Position numbers and translations under genes: made by a program
Shown here: positions 435 through 20,572 of the stretch, piece after piece
Numbering within the stretch: position 1 is the stretch's first letter
How the letters are laid out: every line of letters starts with the position of its first letter
The notes under the pieces: model-generated
Databases searched by the model: none
Told to the model about the DNA's origin: nothing
The model's input: only the letters and a program-made list of their open reading frames with translations
Virus record (IMG/VR): IMGVR_UViG_3300037189_012314
Span: 1 to 20,857 of that record
From: a virus
Direction: 5' to 3' (one strand)
DNA: 20,857 bases

Positions 435-671
435 TTAATCGTCACCCAGAAGCTTGTCTTCCATTATGGTGGCGAAAGTGAACATGGCTTGTTTTGCTTC
501 AGGCCATTCTGTTATTAGTTCAAACAATATGTCATGGTCAATTGCTTTTTCCATGACCTTTCTGAACTTTTCAACTGCATAGTCCAGAAATTCTTCTTGT
601 TCTTCTTCTGGAATCATGTCAAGAGTAAACTCTTGTGGTTCGACTCCTTCATCATCACATTCGTGACACAT
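435..671 (-). CDS. Small acidic hypothetical protein (78 aa)
   Basis: The start is ATG 671, which has a good Shine-Dalgarno (GAAGGGA) 6-8 bases upstream. The frame stays open as far as a TTG at 860, but that extension runs through an inverted-repeat element and reads like non-coding DNA, so it is left out. The product starts MCHECDDEGVEPQEFTLDMI, with a lone CxxC at residues 2-5, followed by an acidic mostly helical body (EEEQEEFLDYAVEKFRKVMEK). No family recognised. The structured leader at 689-861 ends only a few bases before its ribosome-binding site, so translation could be controlled by that structure. Confidence 0.75.
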   Translation of the reverse strand: MCHECDDEGVEPQEFTLDMIPEEEQEEFLDYAVEKFRKVMEKAIDHDILFELITEWPEAKQAMFTFATIMEDKLLGDD

Positions 672-1705: not shown

Positions 1706-2420
1706 AGGAGGCTACTATCCTTTCTAGTTCGGTTAGTGGTTTTCTTACTATGTTGCCATTCTCTACCTTGATAGGGGAACCATCCCAAGCTAGAGAAACT
1801 CGTTTACTGCCGTAGTCACGCTTGCCAGTTCCATTACATGAAAAGCAATGTTGTGTGCGTTTAGTTGCGTGACCTCTTCCATCAAGGCCATGTTCACATG
1901 GCAATGAGTGCCATCTACTGTATGAATTCATTTGAACAGCATCAGGGTGTGTTGGGCAAACATATTTACCATTTACCACATCACCTTCCCAACAAGTTGG
2001 AGCGTTGCACCAACCATCTACCTTTCCTGTTTTAGAACACATACGACAGCCTTGTATCTTAGACGGTGTTAGCTTTGCATCTTGTTCATACAATTTGTAT
2101 TGAAAATTGCGTTGCACAATTTCAATGCCAGTGTATTTATAGATAGTAAACCTAACACTATAGGCACGCAAAGGGTTCCAACTGCCACCCCAATGTGTTG
2201 TAACTGTGCCTGGTGATTGAATAGTCTGTGTGTTATCAGTATGGATAGTAATCAATGGATAGTTATTAATCCATGGCATTACTATCTGAATATCACTAGA
2301 CTTATTAAATTTGTTTTCATATTGAATGCGATAACCACGGTCGTATAGAGTACGTTCATACTTTTTACGACCACCTGCTAGGTAATCTTGCCATTCAGCA
2401 TGAGTGTGAAGTCTCCACAT
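1686..2420 (-). CDS. Multi-zinc-knuckle phage protein with DnaJ-like CxxCxGxG motif (244 aa)
   Basis: The ATG at 2420 overlaps the upstream stop by one base. The first ~120 residues are a beta-rich domain (WGGSWNPLRAYSVRFTIYKY). The second half carries several Cys pairs: CRMC, then WCNAPTC, CPTHP, LPCEHG, and CFSCNGTGKRDYGSKR. The last matches the CxxCxGxG zinc repeat of DnaJ. A DnaJ J-domain (HPD) is absent, so this is not a DnaJ, but a zinc-binding protein that may bind nucleic acid or misfolded protein. Its length and complete frame suggest a real, expressed gene. Function unknown. Confidence 0.8.
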   Translation of the reverse strand: MWRLHTHAEWQDYLAGGRKKYERTLYDRGYRIQYENKFNKSSDIQIVMPWINNYPLITIHTDNTQTIQSPGTVTTHWGGSWNPLRAYSVRFTIYKYTGIEIVQRNFQYKLYEQDAKLTPSKIQGCRMCSKTGKVDGWCNAPTCWEGDVVNGKYVCPTHPDAVQMNSYSRWHSLPCEHGLDGRGHATKRTQHCFSCNGTGKRDYGSKRVSLAWDGSPIKVENGNIVRKPLTELERIVASYAGPTS

Positions 2421-6788: not shown

Positions 6789-7340
6789 TTAGGCGTTTGC
6801 CATCTCCTTCACCTTGTTACCGAGATACTGCTTACGCAATTCATCGGCTAATGCCACAACTTCCATAAGAAGTGCGGTGTTAGGCTCTGTTTCCACCAAT
6901 GCGGTGTTACGAGCCTGTGAGAGTGCCTTCTTAGCAGCCGTAAAGACCTCATTAGTCTTTACGCCATTAAGAGCATCTTTAGCAGCCTGTTCTGCCTTCT
7001 CAGCAGAATAGACAGAAGCAACACGCTCAATTTCAGCGTTCATCGCTGTGATGTCCTTAGACACAGTAATGCGGTGAAAGTTCTCACCAAGCAATTCTGT
7101 ATCTATCTTGCTTAGGTCATAAGCAGGACAGACAGACTTGATGTAGCCTGCGAACGCCTCACCTAACTTGGTCTGACCCTTGAGTCCGACCGCAATAAGG
7201 TGTGCGACTGTGATAGCAGAGTCCTGTGAGAACAACTTAGACCAGTCCTCAGCGTGCCAAGACTTGGCGTTGTTGTGCTTGTCCACATAGGACTTGACAG
7301 CACTCTGCGATGCAGCAGATAGAGTTACTATTGCGCTCAT
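6789..7340 (-). CDS. Helical hypothetical protein (183 aa), first leftward gene
   Basis: The frame extends to GTG/ATG codons near 7394, but ATG 7340 has AGAAAGG nine bases upstream, while the extension overlaps a hairpin-rich leader and is rejected. The product begins MSAIVTLSAASQSAVKSYVD and is almost entirely alpha-helical and Ala-rich. The later part (RVASVYSAEKAEQAAKDALN) looks like a coiled coil. It has one Cys and no catalytic motif. As the first gene after the divergent region, probably with its own terminator, it may be strongly and early expressed. No family recognised. Confidence 0.78.
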   Translation of the reverse strand: MSAIVTLSAASQSAVKSYVDKHNNAKSWHAEDWSKLFSQDSAITVAHLIAVGLKGQTKLGEAFAGYIKSVCPAYDLSKIDTELLGENFHRITVSKDITAMNAEIERVASVYSAEKAEQAAKDALNGVKTNEVFTAAKKALSQARNTALVETEPNTALLMEVVALADELRKQYLGNKVKEMANA

Positions 7341-9067: not shown

Positions 9068-9583
9068 ATGGCTCATATGCCCATGCACGGAAATCCCAAA
9101 GATCCATTTCCTAATCGTTACCCAGAACCATGGTCTAAGGAATATCCGAAAATCACAAAACCAGAAGCACCTCTAACGATCACATCCCTATTCCCACAGT
9201 TTAATCGCTGGGCAATCGGATTTGATCCCCTCTTTGACACCTTCAAGGAAGTATCTTCATCTGTAAAGGCAAGCGGTTACCCGCCTTATAATATTTACAA
9301 GAAGAAGGACCAATACATCCTAGAACTGGCTGTGGCAGGCTTTGCTAAGGAAGATATCAAAATCTCCGTACAAGAGCTCACACTGACCGTAGAAGGCGAA
9401 TTAGAGGCATCACAGGAGGAAGCTATCCATAAGGGAATCGCTACCCGTGACTTTAAGCAAGACTTCGTTTTAGCGGAGTATGTAGTAGTCAAGGGTGCAG
9501 AACTTAAGGATGGTTTGCTTAGGATCACTCTCGAGCAGGAACTTCCAGAAGAGAAGAAAGCAAAGATTATCGAAATCGCATAA
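9068..9583 (+). CDS. Small heat-shock protein, Hsp20/alpha-crystallin family (171 aa)
   Basis: This is a holdase chaperone that keeps unfolding proteins soluble as an oligomer. The alpha-crystallin domain covers about residues 71-158: YPPYNIYKKKDQYILELAVA start, GFAKEDIKI, LTVEGELE, and the signature A144-ELKDGLLRITL. The N-terminal arm holds GFDPLFDTF, as in IbpA-type proteins. The C-terminal KIIEIA provides the I-x-I motif (168-170) that docks subunits. Length is slightly above the bacterial norm because of a Pro-rich N-terminus. Hsp20 genes occur in several large phages and may help virion protein folding. It has its own promoter and a hairpin terminator. ATG 9068 follows AAGGAG. Confidence 0.93.
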   Translation: MAHMPMHGNPKDPFPNRYPEPWSKEYPKITKPEAPLTITSLFPQFNRWAIGFDPLFDTFKEVSSSVKASGYPPYNIYKKKDQYILELAVAGFAKEDIKISVQELTLTVEGELEASQEEAIHKGIATRDFKQDFVLAEYVVVKGAELKDGLLRITLEQELPEEKKAKIIEIA

Positions 9584-9587
9584 TCCC

Positions 9588-9596
9588 TGCTATAAT
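9588..9596 (+). promoter_or_regulatory. Extended -10 promoter ahead of the tRNA cluster
   Basis: TGC-TATAAT (9588-9596) followed by TAATAAAGAG copies the 9005 promoter almost exactly. Transcription would start near 9603, at the foot of the following hairpin. It is placed to drive the tRNA cluster, although the hairpin would have to be read through or serve as a processed 5' end. Confidence 0.6.
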
Positions 9597-9606
9597 TAAT
9601 AAAGAG

Positions 9607-9646
9607 CCCCTGGTTTCTACGGCGAATACGTGGCCAGGGGTTTCTT
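9607..9646 (+). terminator. Hairpin with T-run after hsp20
   Basis: CCCCTGG (9607-9613) pairs with CCAGGGG (9634-9640), followed by TTTCTT. This looks like an intrinsic terminator for hsp20, but it lies after the 9591 promoter and directly abuts the tRNA-Asn 5' end, so a role as a leader or processing hairpin is equally possible. Confidence 0.55.
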
Positions 9647-9719
9647 TGGTCTTTAGCTCAGTCGGCAGAGCGTAGAGCTGTTAACTCTAATGTCCCTGGT
9701 TCGAGTCCAGGAAGACCAG
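9647..9719 (+). tRNA. tRNA-Asn (anticodon GTT)
   Basis: 73 bases. Acceptor TGGTCTT/AAGACCA; D-arm GCTC/GAGC; anticodon stem TAGAG/CTCTA with loop CTGTTAA; T-arm CCTGG-TTCGAGT-CCAGG. All stems are perfectly paired or G-T paired. The discriminator is G and CCA is not encoded. It is the first of three tRNAs. Confidence 0.95.
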
Positions 9720-9725
9720 CACGGA

Positions 9726-9840
9726 GTATGAGTCTGAACAACTCATACAAAGTTAGTTGTACCGAAACCTACCCTGTGAGCGCATCATACGAAGGTGTTC
9801 AGACCGATGGAGATTGCTCTGCTAACTCACTAGGTACAAC
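9726..9840 (+). other. Structured spacer between tRNA-Asn and tRNA-Met
   Basis: GTATGAGT-ctgaaca-ACTCATAC (9726-9748) is a perfect 8-bp hairpin. Just after it AGTTAG (9751-9756) pairs with CTAACT (9822-9827), and GTTGTACC (9756-9763) with GGTACAAC (9833-9840). The order of the arms makes the last two a pseudoknot or alternative folds. A final GTCAGC/GCTGAC pair (9842-9847, 9876-9881) precedes the tRNA. No ribosome-binding site supports the long open frame here. Confidence 0.6.
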
Positions 9841-9887
9841 AGTCAGCAGGTGGTTTAGATTAAGAATCAAAGCCGTGGCTGACACAT

Positions 9888-9962
9888 TGCGGAGTAGAGC
9901 AGTTCGGTCAGCTCAGCAGCCTCATAAGCTGAAGGTCGTGGGTTCAAATCCCTCTTCCGCAA
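9888..9962 (+). tRNA. tRNA with CAT anticodon (Met or Ile2)
   Basis: 75 bases. Acceptor TGCGGAG/TTCCGCA with one G-T; D-arm GAGC/GCTC; anticodon stem GCAGC/GCTGA with loop CTCATAA and one G-A mismatch at the outer pair; T-arm GTGGG-TTCAAAT-CCCTC with one T-T mismatch. The T1-A72 pair and the lack of three G-C pairs in the anticodon stem argue against an initiator. A lysidine-modified Ile2 (codon ATA) cannot be told from elongator Met by eye. Confidence 0.9.
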
Positions 9963-9990
9963 CGGAGTAACACTTGTATGGCGGTATATA

Positions 9991-10122
9991 TTTTAGTTAG
10001 CTACTAAAAAGAACGTTGACTGTTTACGCAAGTATGTAGGGGTTTCTAGAGCAGCCTACACGGTCTCGTCAGGGGACTCGGTTACAGACCTTACGGCGTG
10101 GTGAAAGATAAACCGACCTGAC
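9991..10122 (+). other. Structured spacer between tRNA-Met and tRNA-Gln
   Basis: TTTTAGT-tagct-ACTAAAA (9991-10009), TGTAGG/CCTACA (10035-10040, 10055-10060), and a coaxial pair GTCAGG (10068-10073) plus TCGGTT (10078-10083) with AACCGA plus CCTGAC (10111-10122) are all perfect. GGTCT (10062-10066) can pair with AGACC (10086-10090) across the last helix, giving a possible pseudoknot. Again no gene is supported. Confidence 0.6.
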
Positions 10123-10126
10123 ACAT

Positions 10127-10197
10127 TCTCCATTCGTCCAACGGCAGGACTCCTGTTTTTGGCACAGGCAATCGTGGTTCGAATCCACGGTGGAGAG
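10127..10197 (+). tRNA. tRNA-Gln (anticodon TTG)
   Basis: 71 bases. Acceptor TCTCCAT/GTGGAGA; D-arm GTCC/GGAC; anticodon stem CCTGT/ACAGG with loop TTTTGGC; T-arm CGTGG-TTCGAAT-CCACG, perfectly paired. The discriminator is G and CCA is not encoded. It is the last of the three rightward tRNAs. Confidence 0.95.
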
Positions 10198-10243
10198 CAA
10201 AGTGTAGTTACAATGGCTACCCCGCCGAAAAGTTTAGGAAGTT

Positions 10244-10964: not shown

Positions 10965-11531
10965 ATGACAACATTAGTAGCAATTCAAGGTGACGGCTGG
11001 TCTGTTATCGGATGCGACTCTCGTGCATCTGGTGAAGATGGCCGTTATATGGAATTAGCAACACCTAAGATTGTTGATAACAACGGTGTGCTTATTGCTG
11101 TCTCTGGCGCATCCCGTGGTGGAAATATTACTCAATTTGGTTGGAAGCCACCAAAACCTCGTGCTAACGAGAATTTAGACATGTTTGTAACAAAGCGCTT
11201 TATTCCTGAGATGCGTGAAGCTTTTATTAAAGCCGGTTATGATGCCAAAGATGATGGCGATGCTGCAGGACACGACTCTAACCTAATTGTTTCAATTCGT
11301 GGCGTCCTTTACCCAATCTTTGAAGATTACTCTTGGGATCGTGAAGCCCGCAACGTTTACTACGCCGGTAGCGGCGGAGATGTGGCTCTTGGCGCACTTG
11401 AAGCTTTAGACTACTCTAAGGCTAAAAGTCCAGCGGCTGCCGAAAAAATCTTACGCAGAGCTGTAGAGATTGCCTGTAAGCACGATATTTATTCTGGCGG
11501 AAAGATCATTACACACATACAAGAAGCCTAA
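10965..11531 (+). CDS. Proteasome-beta/HslV-like Ntn hydrolase (188 aa)
   Basis: The product begins MTTLVAIQGDGWSVIGCDSR. After Met removal, Thr2 becomes the N-terminal nucleophile Thr1, and Asp18 falls exactly at the conserved Asp17 of proteasome subunits (GCDSRAS). Lys35 sits one position from Lys33. GSGGDVALGALEAL (about 145-158) matches the conserved GSG helix region. The length is close to HslV but short for 20S beta, and no separate propeptide exists. Related genes occur in actinophages, to my memory, near structural genes. Substrate unknown: virion maturation protease, host-proteasome mimic or amidase-type enzyme are possible. ATG 10965 follows GAGAGGG. Confidence 0.85.
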   Translation: MTTLVAIQGDGWSVIGCDSRASGEDGRYMELATPKIVDNNGVLIAVSGASRGGNITQFGWKPPKPRANENLDMFVTKRFIPEMREAFIKAGYDAKDDGDAAGHDSNLIVSIRGVLYPIFEDYSWDREARNVYYAGSGGDVALGALEALDYSKAKSPAAAEKILRRAVEIACKHDIYSGGKIITHIQEA

Positions 11532-12636: not shown

Positions 12637-12834
12637 ATGACCGATTTAATGGTAGAAGAAGAGCTAGTATTAAACCTCAGGGAAAGCTGTGATCAATGCT
12701 CAGCAAGGGCATTTGTTATGGTAATCTTGCCCTACGGAGACCTAACTTTCTGTATGCACCATTATAATCAGAACGCCCAAGCACTTACAGACCAGGGCGG
12801 AATTGCTAAACTTTTGTCTGTAAATGAAGACTAG
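12637..12834 (+). CDS. Actinobacterial-type zinc protein, DUF7455-like (65 aa)
   Basis: The product has LRESCDQCSARAFVMVILPY followed by GDLTFCMHH: C18-DQ-C21, a two-stranded beta turn, then C39-MH-H42. This matches a small family I associate with Actinobacteria and their phages (DRCDxCxAxAxVRVxLxxGxLxFCxHH), which I recall as DUF7455. It is a single zinc-binding domain of unknown role. The Shine-Dalgarno (GTGGGA) is weak and the start lies 22 bases after the terminator, so it may have its own promoter. Confidence 0.75.
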   Translation: MTDLMVEEELVLNLRESCDQCSARAFVMVILPYGDLTFCMHHYNQNAQALTDQGGIAKLLSVNED

Positions 12835-18772: not shown

Positions 18773-18998
18773 TCGTAAAAGCAAAACTACAAAAGAATTA
18801 ACAAAGGTTCAACGCAGAGTAAATTCCTTGCCTACTCAAGAGCTACTTACCTGGACAGATCAAATTATGTACTCGGTTGGTCGTAACTTGTCTGCTTGGC
18901 AAAAAACTCAGTACAAAGACAATTTAGCAGAGGCAAAACTTGGAGCAGAATCTTTAAGCGCTATTTTAGATACCTTAAGTGAAAGACACGGCCTGTGA
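18759..18998 (+). CDS. Small helical protein before TerL (79 aa)
   Basis: The frame extends to 18726, but ATG 18759 (GGGGCAGAAG upstream, 14-base overlap) begins the natural sequence MKIFNRKSKTTKELTKVQRR. The body is helical (PTQELLTWTDQIMYSVGRNL, then DNLAEAKLGAESLSAILDTL). The size, charge and position immediately before the large terminase subunit would suit a terminase small subunit or a cofactor, but no helix-turn-helix is clear. GTGA overlap with TerL. Confidence 0.7.
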   Translation: MKIFNRKSKTTKELTKVQRRVNSLPTQELLTWTDQIMYSVGRNLSAWQKTQYKDNLAEAKLGAESLSAILDTLSERHGL

Positions 18999-20572
18999 GC
19001 GAATCCCAGTTTGATGAGTTAGAACCGGAAGATTTTGACGAAGATGGCAATGTCCTGCCAGAAGAGGTTGAAGACGACGGTTTAGATGAGCTCTCTAAGG
19101 AGTTTGTTAAAGCTCTTGTAAATAAAATCATGGACTTTCAAAAAGTTCTTGTCGGCCATGAGCTGCACCCATATCAGACACCTCTAGCTAGAAGGTTGAT
19201 AGAGTCAGTCATTATCAATGACGGTGAAGAAATCACAGCTCTTGCCTCTCGTCAGAGTGGTAAGTCAGAGACCATTGCTAATACAGTGGCCACACTCATG
19301 GTTATCCTTCCACGCCTTGCAAAGATGTATCCAGAGCTACTTGGTAAGTTTGGTGATGGAATTATGGTGGGTATGTTCGCACCGGTTCAATCACAGGTAG
19401 AAACCCTATACGGCCGTACAGTATCCCGCCTTACTAGCGAATCAGCCCTAGATGTTCTTGGTGATCCTGAAATTGACGATATGGTAGCTAAAACACCTGG
19501 CGTAGTAAGGAACATCCGACTTAAGAACTCAGGCAGTAGCCTTATGATAATGACAGCAAACCCTAGAGCTAAAATTGAATCTAAGTCCTTCCACCTAATT
19601 ATTATTGATGAGTGTCAAGAAGCTGATGACTTTGTAGTGGCCAAATCAATTGCCCCTATGGGTGCTTACTACAACGCTACTATGGTTAAGACCGGTACAC
19701 CTACTACACACAAAAACAACTTCTATAAAGCTATTCAGTTTAACAAACGTAGGCAAACAGGTCGCAATGCCCGTCAGAACCATTTTCAATGGGACTGGAA
19801 AGATGTTGCAAAAGTAAACGCTAACTACGAAAAGTTTATTAAGAAAGAAATGCTGCGTATTGGAGAAGACTCAGACGAGTTCCAACTCTCCTATAACTGT
19901 AAGTGGTTGCTAGAACGTGGTATGTTCGTAACATCCAGTATCATGGAAGACTTAGGCGATACCTCGCAGGAACTTGTAAAGTCTTGGCACCGTTCACCAG
20001 TCGTAGTGGGAATTGACCCAGCACGCAAGATGGACTCAACTGTAGTAACTGTTGTGTGGGTAGATTGGGATCGCCCTGATGAATATGGATACTATGATCA
20101 TAGAGTATTAAATTGGTTAGAACTGCAGGGAGATGACTGGGAAGAACAATATTTCCAGATACAACAATTTCTTGGAGCATACGATGTGCTTGCTATAGGA
20201 ATTGACGCCAATGGTGTTGGTGATGCAGTGGCCGGAAGATTAAAAGTTCTTATGCCTCGTGCTGAAGTAATTCCGGTTACATCAAGCCCTACAGAACAAT
20301 CTAAGAGATGGAAGCATCTCCAAGCGTTAATTCAACGCCAGATGGTCTCATGGCCTGCCCATGCTAAGACTCGTCGCCTACGTATTTGGAAAAAGTTCTA
20401 CCAGCAAATGACGGATGCCGAAGTTCAGTACAAAGGCCCTAACTTTTTGGTAGCTGCTCCAGATGAAGCCCACGCCCACGATGACTTTGTGGACTCTTTG
20501 GCTTTAGCATGTTCCCTCACACAAGAACTAGTTATGCCAACAATTGAAGTTTCGGCAAGTCCTTTCTTCTAA
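18995..20572 (+). CDS. terL: Terminase large subunit (525 aa)
   Basis: This motor packages phage DNA into the prohead and cuts it. GTG 18995 overlaps the preceding stop (GTGA). After an acidic N-terminus, the ATPase has Walker A S85-RQSGKSE (K90), Walker B L201-IIIDE206, and coupling motif TGTPTT (about 233-238). The nuclease shows the RNase H-like acidic residues: D341 in VVGIDPARKMDS, D404 in IGIDANGVGD, and D496/D497 with D500 in HDDFVDS. Both domains are complete and the length is normal. The small subunit is not identified, though the preceding gene is a candidate. Of all genes here this gives the best marker for phylogenetic placement. Confidence 0.95.
   Translation: MSESQFDELEPEDFDEDGNVLPEEVEDDGLDELSKEFVKALVNKIMDFQKVLVGHELHPYQTPLARRLIESVIINDGEEITALASRQSGKSETIANTVATLMVILPRLAKMYPELLGKFGDGIMVGMFAPVQSQVETLYGRTVSRLTSESALDVLGDPEIDDMVAKTPGVVRNIRLKNSGSSLMIMTANPRAKIESKSFHLIIIDECQEADDFVVAKSIAPMGAYYNATMVKTGTPTTHKNNFYKAIQFNKRRQTGRNARQNHFQWDWKDVAKVNANYEKFIKKEMLRIGEDSDEFQLSYNCKWLLERGMFVTSSIMEDLGDTSQELVKSWHRSPVVVGIDPARKMDSTVVTVVWVDWDRPDEYGYYDHRVLNWLELQGDDWEEQYFQIQQFLGAYDVLAIGIDANGVGDAVAGRLKVLMPRAEVIPVTSSPTEQSKRWKHLQALIQRQMVSWPAHAKTRRLRIWKKFYQQMTDAEVQYKGPNFLVAAPDEAHAHDDFVDSLALACSLTQELVMPTIEVSASPFF

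Follow-up and report, generated by a model that had tools for sequence, protein, structure and literature searches.

Two conserved structured RNA families, S1 and S2, in the tRNA array of an uncultivated tailed phage

The analysed DNA, referred to as the window, comprises 20,857 nt of IMG/VR record IMGVR_UViG_3300037189_012314 and is derived from a tailed-phage genome, which it covers in part. Three tRNA genes, predicted by both ARAGORN and Rfam, are situated between an hsp20 gene and a gene for an HslV-like protein. They are separated by two spacers, S1 and S2, the subject of this study. The features of the region are as follows:

9068-9583: Hsp20 (hsp20)
9588-9596, plus strand: extended -10-like element TG-C-TATAAT (TGCTATAAT), putative promoter
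9607-9613/9634-9640, plus strand: stem of a leader hairpin, the loop of which is kept in relatives
9647-9720, plus strand: tRNA-Asn (GTT)
9721-9887, plus strand: S1 RNA, the entire Asn/Met spacer (167 nt), 167.4 bits with covariance model R1, 13 distinct homologues
9888-9963, plus strand: tRNA-Met (CAT)
9964-10126, plus strand: S2 RNA, the entire Met/Gln spacer (163 nt), 189.3 bits with covariance model R2, 7 distinct full-length homologues
10127-10198, plus strand: tRNA-Gln (TTG)
10965-11531: HslV-like protein
18995-20572: terminase (PHROG 2, E 9e-29; approximately 53% identity to the terminase of Streptomyces phage BRock)

The tRNA limits given by ARAGORN bear out the original prediction of two stem-rich spacers of about 165 bases, and the stems are found where it had placed them. 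At gathering scores, tRNAs are the sole Rfam families recognised in the window. With the cut-off relaxed to E 5 in an 801-nt region, no match falls inside either spacer, and two weak matches are located on the strand opposite to tRNA-Met. Likewise, the check for atypical tRNAs (ARAGORN, and the Rfam tRNA model up to E 5) returned the three flanking tRNAs only. S1 and S2 are unmatched by any of the 4,227 models of Rfam. Further downstream, the window ORF 12637-12834 resembles a small cysteine-rich protein (CDQCSA...FCGHHY, by eye), which in the tRNA arrays of contigs L073, L089, and L090 is encoded between tRNA-Asn and tRNA-Ile.

Positions 9588-9640 are likely the start of the array transcript, as judged from the -10-like element and the hairpin following it. 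Downstream of hsp20, L020, L021, L034, L036, and L044 possess the identical 20-nt hairpin loop TTTCTACGGCGAATACGTGG, whether or not tRNAs come behind. At this site, another hairpin occurs in L002, L031, and L033, with GTAGGTACCGC and GCATTGG in common. A consensus promoter scan for two hexamers returned no promoter, and no terminator-like sites were found on the plus strand near the spacers. By eye, a TATA-like hexamer occurs shortly upstream of three of the S1 loci without an upstream tRNA.

Relatives of both spacers were collected by blastn against loci fetched by their neighbouring genes and subsequently by core-motif scans of IMG/VR. By blastn, S1 was found in L031 (85% identity over 124 nt), and S2 in L033 (83% over 163 nt) as well as in L034 and L021 (87% over 108 nt). 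The core-motif scans extended S1 to 17 contigs with 13 distinct sequences, and S2 to 7 distinct full-length sequences and one fragment at a contig end. All carriers found are uncultivated contigs, and the families are small, with some members being close kin. The covariance models detected one S1 copy per record in 17 of 24 records (R1) and one S2 copy per record in 9 of 24 (R2); among these records, both RNAs occur together only in the phage of the window (contig L001) and in L090. The S2 relative of the latter (442-605, minus strand) is close to S2 in its 5' half and diverged in its 3' half, with compensatory changes in helix P4. L002, with 75% identity in a neighbouring protein, possesses tRNA-Asn followed by the downstream genes and lacks the block S1-Met-S2-Gln.

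Among cultured phages, blastn of S1 or S2 alone against INPHARED gave short weak matches or none, and nothing credible; in case of the whole-region DNA query, the matches listed (20 of 176) fall over the tRNAs. Neither R1 nor R2 detected a credible member in Corynebacterium phage C3PO or Synechococcus phage S-CREM1. Several candidates were rejected as chance matches: a single GTDB match to the S1 19-mer (L095), which lies in an apparent protein ORF and lacks the surrounding S1 sequence, as well as L069, L076, and L077 as S2, which are pattern matches without flanking tRNA or R2 match. L088 was rejected as S1 on the same grounds (no flanking tRNA, no model match). In the literature, no description of S1 or S2 was found by text searching, which cannot query by sequence.

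For S1 and S2, covariation was analysed in MAFFT alignments built without structure. As controls served 500 shuffles, by which kinship is not removed, and slides of the pairing partner by one to three columns, in which kinship is kept; in both families, these slides reduced pairing to below 50%. The S1 fold consists of the following elements:

9726-9733/9741-9748, plus strand: P1 hairpin; 7-nt loop CTGAACA invariant in 13 of 13 sequences, inner pairs change on both sides
9734-9739 with 9797-9802, plus strand: loop-loop contact (pseudoknot); CTGAAC/GTTCAG complementary and invariant in 13 of 13
9756-9763/9833-9840, plus strand: P2; 96.2% of cells paired, 3 of 8 pairs with compensatory changes
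9776-9780/9826-9830, plus strand: P3; 3 of 5 pairs with compensatory changes, encloses the near-invariant core
9794-9796/9803-9805, plus strand: small core hairpin presenting the loop GTTCAG; pairs mostly invariant
9809-9812/9817-9820, plus strand: small hairpin of the near-invariant core; pairs mostly invariant
9842-9847/9878-9883, plus strand: P6 terminal helix; 5 of 6 pairs with compensatory changes, ends 4 nt before tRNA-Met

In the S1 alignment 98.5% of the cells are paired (shuffled mean 88.1), both sides change in 14 pairs (shuffled mean 7.1), and the covariation score is 0.352 (shuffled 0.126), none of these values being reached by any of the 500 shuffles. The folding energy of the single sequence is unusual as well (z -2.57; 1 of 200 shuffles as good). 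A pair crossing another helix had been predicted for each spacer. In S1 this prediction is strongly confirmed, since the pair 9756-9763/9833-9840 is the conserved and covarying P2, and the partner that it crosses is the loop contact 9734-9739/9797-9802. From its sequence, this contact is likely a kissing interaction; due to its invariance in all 13 sequences it is beyond the reach of a covariation test. A scan with the seven contact positions left open returned no contig beyond the known S1 set.

The elements of S2 are the following:

9972-9976/10029-10033, plus strand: P1; constant except for one one-sided change
9981-9985/10019-10023, plus strand: P2; compensatory changes
9991-9997/10003-10009, plus strand: P2a; compensatory changes
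10036-10040/10055-10059, plus strand: P3 hairpin; G-C replaced by C-G, plus other compensatory changes
10068-10073/10117-10122, plus strand: P4 terminal helix; 100% paired, 3 compensatory pairs, ends 4 nt before tRNA-Gln
10079-10083/10111-10115, plus strand: P5; 94.3% paired, one-sided changes

With 92.3% of the cells paired (shuffled mean 85.8), changes on both sides in 11 pairs (shuffled mean 4.1), and a covariation score of 0.248 (shuffled 0.134), S2 also exceeds all of its 500 shuffles in each respect. Its single-sequence folding energy is ordinary (z -0.03; 95 of 200 shuffles as good), and thus it is the homologues, not single-sequence folding, that carry the claim for S2. In nine relatives, too, the folding energies of the single sequences are ordinary for the most part, so that the case for both RNAs rests on covariation. 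The crossing pair predicted for S2 (10062-10066/10086-10090) did not stand: the share of paired cells is 64.7%, conservation is confined to the outer G-C pairs, and each of the three inner pairs is formed in 3 of 7 sequences. An alternative long-range pair ACGC/GCGT was discarded, as it is broken in some sequences. A further candidate pair, the alternative 3-bp CGG/CCG, is present in 7 of 7 sequences with one compensatory change and competes with P5.

A protein-coding function of S1 and S2 was rejected, given that the block-length differences are not multiples of three, and no conserved reading frame was retained: all three plus-strand frames contain a stop in 10 of 13 S1 and 6 of 7 S2 sequences. 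In the window itself, an 80-codon ORF (9728-9970) runs into tRNA-Met. Conserved and covarying pairing is present in the homologous clusters, its absence having been named as evidence against functional spacers. S1 and S2 are two unrelated, conserved families of structured RNAs that were previously unclassified.

The spacing was surveyed in 13 distinct S1 loci and 7 distinct S2 loci. Across phages, both RNAs are located flush between differing tRNAs, on the tRNA strand wherever tRNAs flank them. A tRNA follows directly downstream in 11 of 13 S1 and 5 of 7 S2 loci, and in all of these 11 and 5 loci a gap of 3-6 nt separates the terminal helix from it, measuring exactly 4 nt in 9 and 3 of them, respectively. 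Upstream, a tRNA ends 8-10 nt before the first counted helix base in 9 of 13 S1 loci and 7-8 nt before it in all 7 S2 loci; the remaining 4 S1 loci lack an upstream tRNA. Depending on the phage, S1 is followed by a Met, Asn, Thr, Leu, Ser, Gly, or Gln tRNA. L080 contains a full-length S1 (160.6 bits) and no tRNA detectable by ARAGORN or Rfam, and an open reading frame is situated downstream of this S1. In the syntenic contigs L080, L094, and L072, a common run of genes is preceded by S1 alone, S1 and tRNA-Gln, and Met-S2-Leu, respectively. After hsp20, S1 occurs in L031, S2 in L033, L034, and L021, both in the window, and neither in L002. It follows that S1 and S2 occupy the same loci, independently of the tRNAs present.

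Other tRNA-like and structured stretches occur in these arrays. In L092, where the next tRNA called by ARAGORN is 214 nt away from S1, a stretch that resembles a tRNA and includes a T-arm motif, uncalled by ARAGORN, is found right after S1 (1971-2123, minus strand). An acceptor stem and a T arm only (approximately 42 nt, around 6845-6886) follow tRNA-Asn in L031 and could represent a remnant or a minihelix. A possible further spacer RNA is located in L089 (3951-4069) and in the 125-nt spacer before tRNA-Gly of L090, where a similar closing stem, GGCTATA.../...TATAGCC, stops 3 nt short of the tRNA in each case.

The known RNA manA (RF01745) exceeds the Rfam cut-off in the spacer before tRNA-Asp, adjoining S1, in two S1 contigs. 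Together with two cultured phages, its occurrences are:

L079, 1453-1634, minus strand: manA, 64.0 bits
L082, 10702-10886, plus strand: manA, 74.7 bits
Corynebacterium phage C3PO (L115), 2419-2605: manA model match, 47.2 bits, below the cut-off of 55.2
Synechococcus phage S-CREM1 (L116), 1716-1930: manA as annotated in the record, tRNA-Leu/tRNA-Asn spacer

The C3PO match fills the gap between tRNA-Trp and tRNA-Ser (2417-2605). The S-CREM1 record additionally annotates wcaG ahead of tRNA-Met and, in the spacer from tRNA-Asn to tRNA-Gly, abiF; the S-CREM1 paper assigns these array RNAs to the cis-regulatory RNAs and, in one case, to the sRNAs (PMC9964418). A 170-nt spacer of the same phage contains, by eye, a tRNA-like stretch and folds no better than shuffles.

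We consider it probable that S1 and S2 are independent small RNA genes within the tRNA array that are released by tRNA processing and act separately from the tRNAs. Of the four origins proposed for the spacers (independent small RNAs, processing signals, decayed tRNAs, tRNA-like decoys) this one is favoured, with the RNAs presumed to be stable. The array would be transcribed as one RNA from a promoter probably situated just after hsp20. RNase P would cut the 5' ends of tRNA-Met and tRNA-Gln, a step suggested by the geometry and by the general properties of RNase P, and host tRNA 3'-end nucleases would cut the other side. The spacers would thereby be freed as RNAs of approximately 155-165 nt, each with an end helix and a tail of about 4 nt, and may then act in trans. 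Due to the 4 of 13 S1 loci without an upstream tRNA, release of the S1 5' end cannot always make use of a tRNA. Comparison among the loci speaks for independent RNAs by the covariation, the fixed spacing to tRNAs, the varied neighbours, the S1 of L080, the common loci, the single copy per record, and the similar habit of manA; the empty consensus promoter scan and the shuffle-like folding of the single S2 sequence speak against them.

The main rival holds that the spacers are cis-acting elements without an independent life, the folds of which help RNases to mature, or protect, the adjoining tRNAs. Their flush position on the tRNA strand and the near-constant 4 nt between terminal helix and next tRNA would fit such a role, which is nevertheless unlikely in view of L080 and of the varying tRNA neighbours; for the same two reasons a pure processing signal, as originally proposed, fits badly. 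In addition, the next ARAGORN tRNA in L092 is distant, tRNA-Asn of L002 does without such a spacer, and the core sequence is more conserved than a spacer helix needs. Self-cleaving ribozymes that trim tRNA 3' trailers are improbable. Theta ribozymes, the cleavage sites of which are situated within 5 nt of a tRNA (PMC10879173), provide a precedent, and S1 and S2 are likewise compact, pseudoknot-prone RNAs adjoining phage tRNAs; however, the first counted helix base follows 7-10 nt after the tRNA, the upstream tRNA is missing from 4 of 13 S1 loci, and both the length of about 160 nt and the covariation of the terminal 3' helix are at odds with this role. No Rfam ribozyme family matched up to E 5, although theta ribozymes may be without an Rfam model of their own.

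Still more improbable are riboswitch-like or attenuator leaders that control the downstream sequence. The near-invariant core resembles a ligand pocket, manA is classed as cis-regulatory by Rfam, and the reading frame after S1 makes a cis role possible in L080. Nevertheless, a tRNA, not a coding region, is directly next in most loci of both families, and terminator-like sites are lacking on the plus strand near the spacers. Decayed tRNAs, or chance structure in a non-functional spacer, can hardly be the explanation. Phage arrays do hold tRNA remnants, as exemplified by the stretch seen by eye in S-CREM1, but neither spacer matches the tRNA model up to E 5, which leaves tRNA-like decoys unsupported as well; moreover, the cores vary less than decay would permit, and the strong covariation and the invariant core argue against decay and chance alike.

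Returning to independent RNA genes, it is tempting to speculate, with considerable reserve, that tRNA arrays dock exchangeable RNA genes by making use of tRNA-processing excision, and that S1 and S2 may be anti-defence or host-takeover factors. If so, the docked set would comprise S1, S2, and manA, plus wcaG and abiF in S-CREM1, and S1 and S2 might serve, e.g., as RNA antitoxins or as decoys to neutralise host RNases, being swapped between arrays as defences change. The abiF RNA partners a toxin, and its annotation in the S-CREM1 array hints at the anti-defence reading. A long spacer in the tRNA array of a phage is readily taken for padding; in the window, two conserved RNA families reside in such spacers, and the occurrence of S1, S2, and manA at one kind of site suggests a general genomic address for phage RNA genes. 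C3PO and S-CREM1 are cultured phages in which this idea is testable.

By position, S1 and S2 group with the orphan structured RNAs of phage tRNA arrays; by sequence or model, they belong to none of the families tested. Phage T4 encodes within its tRNA cluster two stable RNAs without a known function, species 1 and 2 (rnaC, rnaD), which are of a length similar to S1 and S2. The manA RNA, an orphan structured RNA of approximately 190 nt, shares the position flush between tRNAs on the tRNA strand, but differs in sequence and fold; accordingly, the Rfam manA model did not match S1 or S2 in the window region or the relatives, though it found manA in adjacent spacers. Rfam files manA as cis-regulatory, and its 5' UTR locations are stressed in its description (PMC2864571); its placement flush between phage tRNAs is hard to reconcile with an exclusively cis-regulatory label. 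The theta ribozymes, HDV-like RNAs of gut phages, are also structured RNAs adjoining phage tRNAs (PMC10879173), but S1 and S2 show neither their cleavage geometry nor an Rfam ribozyme match. Phages and prophages also carry the orphan structured RNAs GOLLD and ROOL, in many cases close to tRNA islands (PMC12286853). The Rfam models of both gave no match in the window or the loci of 18 relatives, and many GOLLD members exceed 800 nt (PMC12286853). The two are partly held by kissing loops according to the same description (PMC12286853), a trait which S1, with its likely kissing contact, would share.
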